A stretch of DNA of 64,000 nt from Bacillota bacterium (GTDB lineage: Bacteria > Bacillota > Clostridia > Clostridiales > Clostridiaceae): assembly GCA_021781745.1 (NCBI GenBank), contig JAJXWH010000021.1, positions 20,401 through 84,400 of the forward strand. Reading direction: 5' to 3'. The notes under the pieces were generated by a model. That model ran no database searches, was not told the DNA's origin, and was given only the letters and a program-made list of their open reading frames with translations. Both the position numbers and the translations under genes were made by a program. Positions 16,890-21,736 of this stretch are shown here, in pieces; position 1 is the stretch's first letter; each line of letters begins with the position of its first letter.

Positions 16890-16926
16890 AGACCTTGTAA
16901 CAATTATAACAATTATTACAAGGTCT
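16890..16926 (-). terminator. Intrinsic terminator after the ATPase-LexA fusion gene
   Basis: The arms AGACCTTGTAA and TTACAAGGTCT form a long stem. The spacer aacaattataacaattat is almost identical to that of the gapN terminator. It lies just past the stop at 16940, upstream of fetA. Confidence 0.8.
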
Positions 16927-16939
16927 TTCATTAATTTTA

Positions 16940-18478
16940 CTAATTTTTAACCAGTCCGATAGCTACTCCAAGAAAACTAAATTGCTGATCTGTGATAAAA
17001 ATAGGTTCATACTTCTCATTTTCAGGCATAAGAACAACTTGTCTATTAATAATATTGTAGGTCTTTAATGTAGCTTCACCATCAATATCAACTGCAACTA
17101 TATCTTTAACCTTTGGCATACCTTGTTTAGTTATTACAACATAGTCTCCATCACAAATATTCTTATTTATCATCGAATCCCCTTTAACTTTAAGCATAAA
17201 TGTATCCTTTGAACTACGTATCCATTCTTTTGGTAAGTAATAATTGTCTTCAATATACTCATTTATAGGAATAGGATTACCTGCCGCAATCTCACTGAAT
17301 ACTGGAATACTCACTACTTCTTCAACTTTTTCTTCAATTCCGTTATATTCAATATATATATCATCTATATTTCCAGAATCTTTTATGAAATTATGATGTA
17401 TATTTCTTTTCAAGTCAATATACTTAATAGTGTCCAATCTTAAAGGCTCTTCTATTTTTATATCCTTTTCTATAGTTTTATCTTCTAATAAGACATCCTT
17501 AGCATCATTAGATTCATTTATTTCTTTAATCTCAACACTAGAATAATTCGTCTTTAAGGTAATACTTTTTCCTTTCATATCATAGCCTAAACTAGCAAAC
17601 GACTTTCCGTTTGTAAGCCAACTATCATATTCGCTATTATTAGATGTATCCATTATAAAAGTAATACTTGAATATGTTTTTTTATTATTTATTGCACCTA
17701 AGAATTCTAGTTGAGCTTTTGTTAACATTTGGCTATCATCAATAAAAATATGCACATATGACTTTACACTCTTACTCTTTGCTGACTTTAAAGCTAGTAA
17801 AACTAAATCCTGATCATCAATTTTGTTTAATTCGTTTAAGTTTTTATTATACTCTTTCAATATTTCAAATATAGCTTGTCTTTGTTCAGAGTTTTTTCTA
17901 AGTACTTTAGGATAGCTGCCATAAACCAATTTATTCATTTTTTTAGATCTATTGGCATTTTGATATTCATTAAGCTTTGTAAAATTACACGACTTAATCC
18001 ACATAATTTCTTTTTGTATAAAGTCAGCATATTTCAAGTCTAATATACTAAGCTTTTTTTTATTATATTTCTTTATTACAGCCATTATTGCTTTATCAAG
18101 GCAACCTTGTCTTTCTTCTAAGGATGCGATAGTAAAATTCTTTTTATATTTCTTTTTGTATTGATTAAAGTAATACATTATTAATGAATCTATTGTACTA
18201 ATTTCTAATTTATCACTATTGTCTTCGTCAAAAAAACTGCTTTGATGGTACTTTTCAGTCTCTATATTTTTATAAATAAATGAAACTGCTTTTGATACTT
18301 CATCACTATACGTAGCAATAAGTATTTTATCATCCTTAGTTATGCAATAATTGTTAAGTAATAATGGAATTTTATTTATAAATGTTGTAGTTTTTCCTGT
18401 TCCCTTTTCGCCTTTTATCAGCATATGGCCATTAGGCTTGTTTCTAAGTATCTTTTTTTGTTCTCTATTAAACTCCAC
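16940..18478 (-). CDS. UvrD-like ATPase fused to a LexA-type S24 peptidase
   Basis: This 512-residue protein joins two activities. The N-terminal part resembles the 1A domain of superfamily I helicases, with Walker A IKGEKGTGKTTTF at about 20-33 and Walker B HIFIDDSQML at about 245-254. Helicase motifs of a second RecA domain are not seen. After a charged linker (about 310-390), a LexA/UmuD-like domain carries a cleavage site EIAAGNP (Ala-Gly near 399-400), the nucleophile Ser in KGDSMIN (about 435) and the Lys in EATLKTYN (about 472). The Ser-Lys spacing of 37 equals that of E. coli LexA. There is no helix-turn-helix. A near-consensus SOS box lies in the promoter region. It may be a DNA-damage-responsive ATPase inactivated or released by self-cleavage. 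That role is inferred. Confidence 0.85.
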   Translation of the reverse strand: MEFNREQKKILRNKPNGHMLIKGEKGTGKTTTFINKIPLLLNNYCITKDDKILIATYSDEVSKAVSFIYKNIETEKYHQSSFFDEDNSDKLEISTIDSLIMYYFNQYKKKYKKNFTIASLEERQGCLDKAIMAVIKKYNKKKLSILDLKYADFIQKEIMWIKSCNFTKLNEYQNANRSKKMNKLVYGSYPKVLRKNSEQRQAIFEILKEYNKNLNELNKIDDQDLVLLALKSAKSKSVKSYVHIFIDDSQMLTKAQLEFLGAINNKKTYSSITFIMDTSNNSEYDSWLTNGKSFASLGYDMKGKSITLKTNYSSVEIKEINESNDAKDVLLEDKTIEKDIKIEEPLRLDTIKYIDLKRNIHHNFIKDSGNIDDIYIEYNGIEEKVEEVVSIPVFSEIAAGNPIPINEYIEDNYYLPKEWIRSSKDTFMLKVKGDSMINKNICDGDYVVITKQGMPKVKDIVAVDIDGEATLKTYNIINRQVVLMPENEKYEPIFITDQQFSFLGVAIGLVKN

Positions 18479-18521
18479 TTTTTCACTCCTTCCATTTATT
18501 ACTTACACTTAAAATATCTTA

Positions 18522-18577
18522 CGAACAAATATTTTAATTATTGTTGTAATTATACTATATTATCAGGGAAAGTGCAA
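18522..18577 (-). promoter_or_regulatory. Promoter with near-consensus SOS (LexA) box for the ATPase-LexA fusion
   Basis: On the minus strand TTGCAC (18577-18572) and TATAAT (18554-18549) are 17 bases apart. Just downstream lies an SOS-like box, read on the plus strand as CGAACAAATATTTT (18522-18535). It matches 12 of 14 positions of the Gram-positive consensus CGAACRNRYGTTYC. The location after the -10 suits repression by LexA. One half-site is imperfect, so the call is moderate. Confidence 0.55.
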
Positions 18578-18729
18578 AATTTAGGCTTTCGCCACTATGA
18601 ATGTATCATGGTAAAACTATTGAAATGTTGTATTACTTCAGCAAAATATGTATAATTGACAAAGAAACTATTTCATACGAAAGTAAAAGTATTCCAAGAA
18701 TGTACAAGCAGATATGGAAGGAGAAAAAA

Positions 18730-19653: not shown

Positions 19654-20028
19654 TTATTCATTAGATTCATAGTTAGTAATTTCTTTTATTGTATTATCAT
19701 CGTTCATAAATACAACTGTTGGTTTATATTTTTTTGCTTCTTCTTCGTCCATTTGAGCATAAGCAATTATTATAACTTTATCTCCTGTTTGCACTAATCT
19801 TGCAGCTGCTCCATTTAAACAAATAACACCTGAATCTCTTTTTCCTGGAATTACGTATGTTTCAAATCTCTCTCCATTGTTTATATCAACAATTTGAACT
19901 TTTTCATTTTCTAATATATTAGAGGCTTCCATTAAAGTCTTGTCTATTGTTATGCTTCCTACATAATTTAACTCCGCTTGAGTAACCGTCGCTCTGTGTA
20001 TCTTTCCTTTTAACATTGTTAGTATCAT
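19654..20028 (-). CDS. panD: Aspartate 1-decarboxylase
   Basis: PanD makes beta-alanine from aspartate for pantothenate synthesis. The 124-residue proenzyme keeps the self-cleavage site YVGSITID, where Gly-Ser cleavage creates the pyruvoyl group, and the motif [14 protein letters not shown]. It is the last gene of the panG-panB-panC-panD operon, 21 bases after panC. GGGGGAGA precedes the ATG at 20028. Confidence 0.96.
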
Positions 20029-20049
20029 TTTTTCTCCCCCTAAATGTGT

Positions 20050-20892
20050 TTAATTAGTATAACTAAAATTATCTATTAGTCTTGTCTTACCAATATATAC
20101 TGCAATCGGTATTAATACATTCTTTTTTATCATATGAACATCCTCTAAAGAATCACTATCTACAATTTCTACATAATCTATTTTAGCTAATGGTTCTTTA
20201 TTTAGTTCATCTGTAATAATTTCCTTAACTTTAAGTGCATCTCTTTCGCCACCAATTAATGCATCTTTAGCTTTTTCTAAACTTCTACTTAACACTAATG
20301 CTGCTTTTCTTTCCTCACTAGAAAGATAAGTGTTTCTTGAGCTTTTCGCTAATCCGTCTTCTTCACGGATTATTGGACAGGCAACTACTTCTACATCAAT
20401 ATTTAAGTCCCTAACCATCCTTCTTATAACAGCAACTTGTTGAGCATCTTTTTCTCCAAAATAAGCTTTATCTGGAGTAACTATATTGAAAAATTTTGAA
20501 ACAACTAAACATACTCCATCAAAATGTCCTGGTCTTTTTGCACCACAAAGTGCATTAGTTAGATTTGAAACACTAACTGTTGTAGATTTATTATCAAAAT
20601 ACATCTCACTTGGTTCTGGATTAAAAACTACATTAGCTCCTGCATTTAAACAAATCTCTAAATCTTTATTTATATCTCTTGGATAACTTTCAAAATCCTC
20701 ATTTGGTCCAAATTGTGTTGGATTTACAAACACACTTACGACTACTCTGTCATTTTCACTAACTGCCATCTTTATTAAACTTTCGTGCCCTTCATGTAAT
20801 GCTCCCATTGTTGGTACATATCCCACTGAAAGACCTTCTTTTCTCCATGCTTTAACTAGGCTTCTTAGTTCTTTAATTTCTTTTACTAACAT
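20050..20892 (-). CDS. panC: Pantothenate synthetase
   Basis: PanC ligates pantoate to beta-alanine using ATP. Its 280 residues show the HIGH-like motif PTMGALHEGHESLIK at about 28-42, VNPTQFGPNEDF, and the KMSKS-like region KSSRNTYLS. Spacing to panB (16 bases) and panD (21 bases) supports one transcript. Confidence 0.97.
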   Translation of the reverse strand: MLVKEIKELRSLVKAWRKEGLSVGYVPTMGALHEGHESLIKMAVSENDRVVVSVFVNPTQFGPNEDFESYPRDINKDLEICLNAGANVVFNPEPSEMYFDNKSTTVSVSNLTNALCGAKRPGHFDGVCLVVSKFFNIVTPDKAYFGEKDAQQVAVIRRMVRDLNIDVEVVACPIIREEDGLAKSSRNTYLSSEERKAALVLSRSLEKAKDALIGGERDALKVKEIITDELNKEPLAKIDYVEIVDSDSLEDVHMIKKNVLIPIAVYIGKTRLIDNFSYTN

Positions 20893-20908
20893 CTTTCTCT
20901 CCTCAAAA

Positions 20909-21736
20909 CTAATATAATTTTTTCAATTCGGTTTCATCAATTTTAAAAGTGTGCTTTTCTTCTGGAAATGTTCCTTCTTCTACTTCCCTAACATAGGAAG
21001 AAATAGCTTCCCTCATAACTGAACCTATATTCGCATATTGCTTTACAAACTTTGGAACAAAATCATTAAACATTCCTAGCATATCTTGATAAACCAATAC
21101 TTGGCCATCACAATATTTTCCTGCACCAATTCCTATAGTTGGAACTGATACTGAATTTGTAATAAGCTCAGCTACCTTCTCTGGAATTCCTTCGAGTACA
21201 ATTGAAAATACACCTGCTTTTTCTAATAGAACGGCATCTTCTATCAATTGTTTAGCAGCCGACTGATCTTTACCTTGTACCTTAAAGCCTCCAAAAGCAT
21301 TAACAGATTGTGGCGTTAACCCTAAGTGACCCATTACAGGAATTTGCGCATCTACAATTGCTTTGACCTGAGCTGCTACTTTTGCACCACCTTCAAGTTT
21401 AACAGCATTTGCTCCACCTTCCTTAATTAATCTTCCAGCATTTAATACTGCTTGTTCTATTGAAACATGATAAGATAAAAATGGCATATCGCTAACTATT
21501 AGTGCGTTTTTTGTACCTCTTTTAACAGCTTTTGTATGATAGATTATTTCATCCATTGTAACAGCTAAAGTATCTTCTTCTCCTTTAATAACCATTCCAA
21601 GGGAATCCCCTATTAAGATAGCATTTACTCCGCTTTCATCAATAATTTTTGCCATTGAATAATCATATGCTGTAAGCATACTTAATTTCTTTCCTTGCTC
21701 TTTAGCTTGTTTAAAAGTTAATACTGTATTTTTCAC
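20909..21736 (-). CDS. panB: 3-methyl-2-oxobutanoate hydroxymethyltransferase
   Basis: PanB forms ketopantoate from ketoisovalerate and methylene-tetrahydrofolate. Its 275 residues have the TIM-barrel motifs [37 protein letters not shown] and [15 protein letters not shown]. The start is a GTG whose G is the last base of the upstream panG stop (TAGTG), so translation is probably coupled. AGGAGG lies just upstream. Ketoisovalerate is also the valine precursor, linking this operon to ilvBN in the window. Confidence 0.97.

Follow-up and report, generated by a model that had tools for sequence, protein, structure and literature searches.

A candidate self-cleaving pseudo-helicase switch in Clostridiaceae, built on a LexA-type S24 domain

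Introduction

In LexA and UmuD-type proteins, S24 domains form dimers, bind to RecA-ssDNA filaments and then cleave their own chain at an Ala-Gly (or Cys-Gly) bond that lies upstream of a catalytic Ser and Lys. To our knowledge, this kind of domain has been described almost exclusively in repressors and in UmuD. The latter has no helicase lobe, just a short arm at its N-terminus. Inactivated helicase domains have a precedent in AddB. We know of no S24 domain in AddAB, RecBCD or AdnAB, nor of any description of the GajB and NERD+UvrD defence systems that includes one. In clostridia, RecA and LexA of C. difficile cross-react with the E. coli proteins (PMC4234289). IrvR of Streptococcus mutans, a LexA-like protein, self-cleaves independently of RecA (PMC7101444).

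Here we analysed a gene in which a helicase-like lobe is joined to an S24 domain. It lies in the window, the whole 64,000-nucleotide stretch of a Clostridiaceae contig (JAJXWH010000021.1, assembly GCA_021781745.1) that was under study. A search of the open-access literature found no description of this protein (the short form) or of its full-length relatives (the long form).

Results

The gene (16940..18478, minus strand, GTG start) encodes a 512-aa pseudo-helicase/S24 fusion identified from its open reading frame and its Pfam and NCBIfam matches. In Pfam, residues 4-275 matched the UvrD-helicase N-terminal domain (PF00580, E=1e-19) and residues 392-507 matched Peptidase_S24 (E=2e-29); there was also a weak match to ADDB_N. 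The NCBIfam LexA model covers residues 384-512 and PRK10276 (UmuD) covers residues 398-510. In the AlphaFold2 model (mean pLDDT 81), a lobe resembling UvrD, PcrA and Rep is connected to a LexA-like domain at the C-terminus by a disordered tether; the tether, marked by low model confidence, spans residues 316-347 (17438..17533, minus strand). Thus the sequence-only reading was right that a single first lobe of an SF1 helicase is present, as lobe 2 is absent, and also that there is no helix-turn-helix, since Pfam gave no HTH match in the 512-aa protein and the N-terminus is the UvrD lobe. This HTH-less protein (16940-18478) nevertheless scores 114.7 bits on the LexA model, above the naming cut-off of 110.95 for "transcriptional repressor LexA", which is a likely source of misannotation. 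The LexA of the source genome is a separate gene on the same contig, about 29 kb from the fusion gene.

The proposed search for the same lobe-plus-S24 architecture across clostridia was carried out, and 69 short and 34 long full-length relatives were compared. They fall in two lengths that share both ends, the short forms having about 350-545 aa (mostly 450-545) and the long forms 807-823 aa. In long forms a complete SF1 helicase (motifs I-VI) precedes an HSDR_N_2 nuclease that has the PD-(D/E)XK residues, and S24 comes last (Pfam: UvrD N, UvrD_C, HSDR_N_2, S24). In the structure model of the long form, residues from about 531 to 628 fold with good confidence into an alpha/beta domain that resembles a nuclease, and the Foldseek matches of the model are headed by UvrD, PcrA and Rep, followed by AddAB and AdnAB. 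Within Clostridiaceae the family occurs in about 130 of 208 genomes by a hand count of best E-values, mostly as the short form. Among 397 sampled genomes from the rest of the phylum, 8 had a member, in every case a long form, which was split in one of them. The distribution of the long form across the phylum is sporadic. One intact long form of 42% identity, annotated just as "S24 family peptidase", is present in a fusobacterium, where it is plasmid-borne, on a 962-kb Ilyobacter replicon. Broken copies occur in some genomes. The split gene, apparently of Heliophilum fasciatum (L042:386-2861), is interrupted between nuclease and S24 and forms two overlapping frames of 614 and 216 aa, representing either a frameshift or a true two-subunit version. 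Close helicase relatives of 517-597 aa with all SF1 motifs were also seen at L047:3668-5218, L048:5536-7326 and L049:4949-6634, with neither nuclease nor S24 domain on the same frame.

The S24 module is a LexA-type self-cleavage domain at residues 392-512 (16943..17305, minus strand), as judged by Pfam, NCBIfam, likeness to LexA and Foldseek. It shares 24-43% identity with LexA C-domains and matches them in Foldseek with E values of about 1e-8 to 1e-11 and TM scores (target) of up to 0.89, in keeping with the S24 fold; the matches include LexA structures solved on RecA filaments. The Ala-Gly site and the Ser/Lys dyad that had been read from the letters are indeed there, all on the minus strand: the predicted cleavage bond Ala399-Gly400 (17279..17284) within I397-A398-A399-G400, Ser435 (17174..17176) and Lys472 (17063..17065). 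They had been described as spaced exactly as in LexA, which holds for the 37 residues between Ser435 and Lys472 but not for the distance from Ala399 to Ser435, namely 36 residues against 35 in E. coli LexA, where we take the residues to be A84 and S119. The suggested conservation check came out clearly, as Ser and Lys were each found in 103/103 relatives (69 short and 34 long full-length proteins), and Ala-Gly was kept in 69/69 short and 31/34 long forms by motif tally. Hence the idea of a LexA-type self-cleaving domain serving as a switch on something other than an HTH repressor is supported by a module that is invariant in all 69 short forms and under strong purifying selection.

A variant site was noticed in one long form (L015:40-2475, minus strand, genome G017), which reads ISAD in place of IAAG, with Asp replacing Gly after the bond. 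This is the change of the non-cleavable E. coli lexA3 (G85D), and the protein is probably a natural uncuttable version. The same genome also carries a short form.

The N-terminal 315 residues (17534..18478, minus strand) form an SF1A (UvrD/PcrA/Rep-like) motor lobe 1 that is catalytically degenerate according to PF00580, the AlphaFold model and the motif tallies across both forms (69 short, 34 long). The Walker A motif, GEKGTGKTT at residues 23-31 (18386..18412, minus strand), is intact, and its Lys is kept in 66/69 short forms, GK in 63/69; the Q-motif Gln is present in 62/69. In motif II/Walker B (IFIDDSQMLT, residues 244-253, 17720..17749, minus strand) the catalytic Glu has become Asp248; this Glu occurs in 34/34 long forms versus 10/69 short forms and 0/15 of the window's clade. 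Residual ATPase activity is conceivable in the ten short forms that retain the Asp-Glu pair. The Gln of motif III is lost from the window protein and gone from 66/69 short forms, and the Thr of motif Ia, a DNA contact, is found in 34/34 long versus 20/69 short forms. Motif IV is vestigial (LKTNYSSVEI, residues 308-317, 17528..17557, minus strand) compared with LSKNYRTTTQI in long forms, with an Arg that is present in 34/34 long and 0/69 short forms. No motif V, motif VI or nuclease exists in the short forms, lobe 2 with its Arg finger being deleted. By its sequence, the vestigial motif IV is the last remnant ahead of the deleted lobe 2 and nuclease, and the lobe is therefore derived from a complete helicase. 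The notion of an ATPase whose activity is switched is contradicted by these losses of the catalytic Glu, the motif III Gln and the motif IV Arg, seen across the short family.

Apparently, the short form descends from the long form by deletion of motor lobe 2 and the nuclease, and did so twice. In the joint-alignment tree the window's clade (15 short forms) is nested within the long forms with strong support, apart from the other 54. Constraining all short forms to group together costs 96 log-likelihood units, and a single origin is thereby rejected on the joint alignment (AU p = 0.0025) though not on the lobe alone. The S24-only tree needs two changes as well, whereas the N-lobe tree, built on a fast-evolving lobe, does not require two origins. 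Rooting with LexA puts the remaining short forms (short-B) on the earliest branch, with weak support. It would be difficult for a degenerate lobe to recover all of its motifs, and we therefore read the trees as two or more truncations of a full-length ancestor; this count is likely, not certain.

Constraint on the lobe has shifted between the two forms. In long forms its conservation is close to that of S24, and in short forms it is far lower: among pairs with 50-60% identity in S24, long pairs have 55% of the lobe in common and short-B pairs 29%. The dN/dS values of short pairs are mostly 0.11-0.28 for the lobe and mostly 0.02-0.11 for S24, and those of long pairs are 0.06-0.10 for the lobe. 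The nucleotide pocket is the surviving part of the short-form lobe, and it is kept under selection together with E157, S197, R200 and H243. Since hydrolysis residues are lost and yet both domains are under purifying selection, the short form most likely does not work as an ATPase and is not in decay either.

The fusion gene is monocistronic, with its own promoter, Shine-Dalgarno sequence and terminator. A sigma-A-type promoter, TTTGCA-18-TATAAT with 10/12 matches, lies at 18549..18578 (minus strand), followed by the ribosome-binding site GGAAGGAG (18486..18493, minus strand), and a strong intrinsic terminator with a 17-bp stem and a T-run (z = -6.5) is found at 16890..16926 (minus strand). A 12/14 LexA box, CGAACAAATATTTT (18522..18535, plus strand), had been claimed just downstream of the -10. 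It is weak and qualifies only as a near-box by pattern counts, matrix score and orthologue comparison. With two mismatches allowed, the window contains 5 copies of the pattern where 3.1 would be expected. On a matrix derived from 21 clostridial lexA promoters, all 21 of which contain GAAC-N4-GTTT and score 19-23 bits, the window box reaches 1.5 bits. A full LexA box within 120 nt was found in 0/103 promoters of family genes, compared with 21/21 lexA promoters. Syntenic orthologues conserve the promoter hexamers but not the box. What is left of the SOS-box claim is a weak hint in the nearest orthologues: a near-box (7/8, one mismatch) occurs in 5/15 of the window's clade versus about 6% expected, in two lineages only, and at the rate of chance in the family outside this clade. 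Weak SOS control in the window's clade is thus possible; constitutive expression with post-translational control would be the simpler reading.

These results bear on two alternatives. The first is the sequence-only reading, in which the protein hydrolyses ATP, is damage-inducible by way of its own LexA box and has its ATPase switched by RecA-stimulated cleavage. It could draw on the retained Walker A GK and Q-motif Gln, the intact S24 module and the near-boxes of the close orthologues. It is very improbable all the same, given that 59/69 short forms are without the catalytic Glu, 69/69 without the motif IV Arg and 66/69 without the motif III Gln, that lobe 2 with its Arg finger is gone, and that full boxes are missing throughout the family promoters. 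The second is a RecA decoy or buffer, whose constitutive S24 would compete with LexA for RecA filaments and so set the SOS threshold, the lobe merely stabilising or localising it. S24 being the most conserved part and expression looking constitutive would suit such a role. Selection on the nucleotide pocket and on the four other lobe residues would be left unexplained, and we regard the decoy as still a shade less probable than the active ATPase.

In most genomes of the window's clade the gene has a HAD-type hydrolase on one side and a pair of ABC transporter genes on the other, and it is a vertically inherited chromosomal gene. Beyond the hydrolase, three consecutive genes (19654-21736) appear by eye to be panD-panC-panB of pantothenate biosynthesis, an ordinary metabolic setting. 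No second family member or long form was found in the source genome. A role as partner of the long form is thereby ruled out in this genome, and the short form must work alone there. In 9 short-form loci (L041:7461-8363 and 8 others) an adjacent gene, located on one side or the other and on the same strand, encodes a DEDDh 3'-5' exonuclease (KapD/DnaQ-like). As a partner it is weakly linked, because an orthologue is also present in genomes that lack the family (G018, G025).

The long form keeps different company. A NERD-HRDC gene (about 356-475 aa) adjoins it in 10/33 loci, directly upstream in 9 (gap 6-57 bp) and downstream in 1; examples are L050:8408-9517 (minus strand) and L110:4368-5444 (plus strand), with 8 further long-form loci. 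The two genes are a possible undescribed two-gene system. Other long-form loci lie near restriction- or defence-type helicases and nucleases, and the long-form helicase scores to the GajB and NERD+UvrD (PADLOC C3a187) models with E of about 1e-36 to 1e-42. Such neighbours and likeness are suggestive of, but do not prove, an effector role for the long form in defence or DNA damage. The antiphage part of the sequence-only reading fits the neighbourhoods of the full-length relatives and not the window gene: the short form is chromosomal, syntenic and common in Clostridiaceae, while the long form is sporadic with defence-type neighbours. A phage derivation found no backing, as no phage record or viral contig was found to encode the fusion; viral contigs gave 80 matches essentially confined to the S24 region and three to the helicase alone. 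Apart from the Ilyobacter long form, a plasmid origin gained nothing either.

Two further alternatives can be weighed here. The protein might be a disguised transcription regulator, its lobe binding DNA in place of the HTH of a CI- or LexA-like repressor. Most well-studied S24 self-cleavers other than UmuD types are repressors, and helicase lobes do bind nucleic acid. The degenerate DNA-contact motif Ia, the missing Pfam HTH match and neighbours that vary between clades, with no conserved regulated neighbour, nevertheless make a regulator quite improbable, if marginally less so than the active ATPase. The last alternative is a functionless, decaying remnant of a lost defence helicase-nuclease, for which the loss of motor and nuclease and the broken copies in some genomes could be cited. 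It is hardly credible, being largely refuted by purifying selection, with dN/dS well below 1 in both domains; moreover, the cleavage residues are invariant, promoter and synteny are conserved, and the same truncated design arose apparently repeatedly.

Discussion

Taken together, we consider it rather probable that the gene encodes a constitutively made pseudo-helicase/S24 switch, the deletion product of a helicase-nuclease-S24 protein, in which filament-stimulated self-cleavage would split the lobe from S24. The gene would then be a constitutively transcribed stand-alone molecular switch. Its lobe 1 appears to have lost hydrolysis and translocation and usually to have kept the adenine-nucleotide pocket (Q-motif Gln, Walker A); as that pocket is usually retained, the pseudo-helicase lobe would most likely act as a nucleotide-bound binding module. 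A flexible tether would link it to the complete LexA-type S24 domain, whose dimerisation would hold the pseudo-helicase as a dimer in the intact protein. By homology, S24 would dock on RecA-ssDNA filaments, and cleavage after Ala399 would release the 399-aa pseudo-helicase from a dimer of 113-aa S24 fragments. The interaction with a partner would thereby be switched off, as in LexA and CI, or on, as in UmuD. In the long form, the same S24 switch probably gates the helicase-nuclease. Nucleotide binding, dimerisation, self-cleavage and the RecA trigger are what we infer from these comparisons, as are the partner and the direction in which the output is switched.

The RecA filament is probably the trigger of cleavage, by analogy with known S24 proteins. 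Alternatively, self-cleavage might not depend on RecA and might follow the nucleotide state of the pseudo-helicase, or some other stress, in the manner of IrvR. The nucleotide pocket is just what survives of the lobe, and because IrvR self-cleaves without RecA (PMC7101444), RecA dependence cannot be read from sequence. A RecA-independent switch is unlikely but deserves to be kept in mind; the S24 domain is of LexA grade, passing the equivalog cut-off, and matches LexA structures solved on RecA filaments.

If the filament-triggered switch is real, the SOS signal would act directly on a DNA-processing module, without transcription. The gene also offers a clean test system, being a single gene with invariant Ala-Gly, Ser and Lys and an apparently constitutive promoter. 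For annotation the family is a hazard, with a short form that passes as LexA and a full-length relative named only as an S24 peptidase.

Like LexA, the window protein has a self-cleavage domain that contains an Ala-Gly site and a Ser/Lys dyad, but a helicase lobe takes the place of the winged HTH, and autoregulation by a LexA box is not evident. With UmuD it shares an HTH-less S24 switch on a non-repressor, as well as the PRK10276 match, and differs by its helicase lobe. The lobe 1 fold and Walker A are those of the SF1A helicases UvrD, PcrA and Rep, from which the short form departs in lacking lobe 2 and the hydrolysis residues, and the long form in having an extra nuclease and S24. The long form resembles GajB and NERD+UvrD in its helicase and in the restriction- or defence-type genes often among its neighbours; its own nuclease, however, is an HSDR_N_2 domain, NERD being in a separate gene. 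Like AddB, RecB and AdnAB, it combines an SF1 helicase with a PD-(D/E)XK nuclease, but one of another family (HSDR_N_2). As a tentative proposal only, RecA-gated switches may comprise, besides the repressors LexA and CI and polymerase subunits like UmuD, a third class: a self-cleavable helicase-nuclease, plausibly a damage- or phage-gated effector, which clostridia may have turned twice or more into a motor-less stand-alone DNA-damage sensor.
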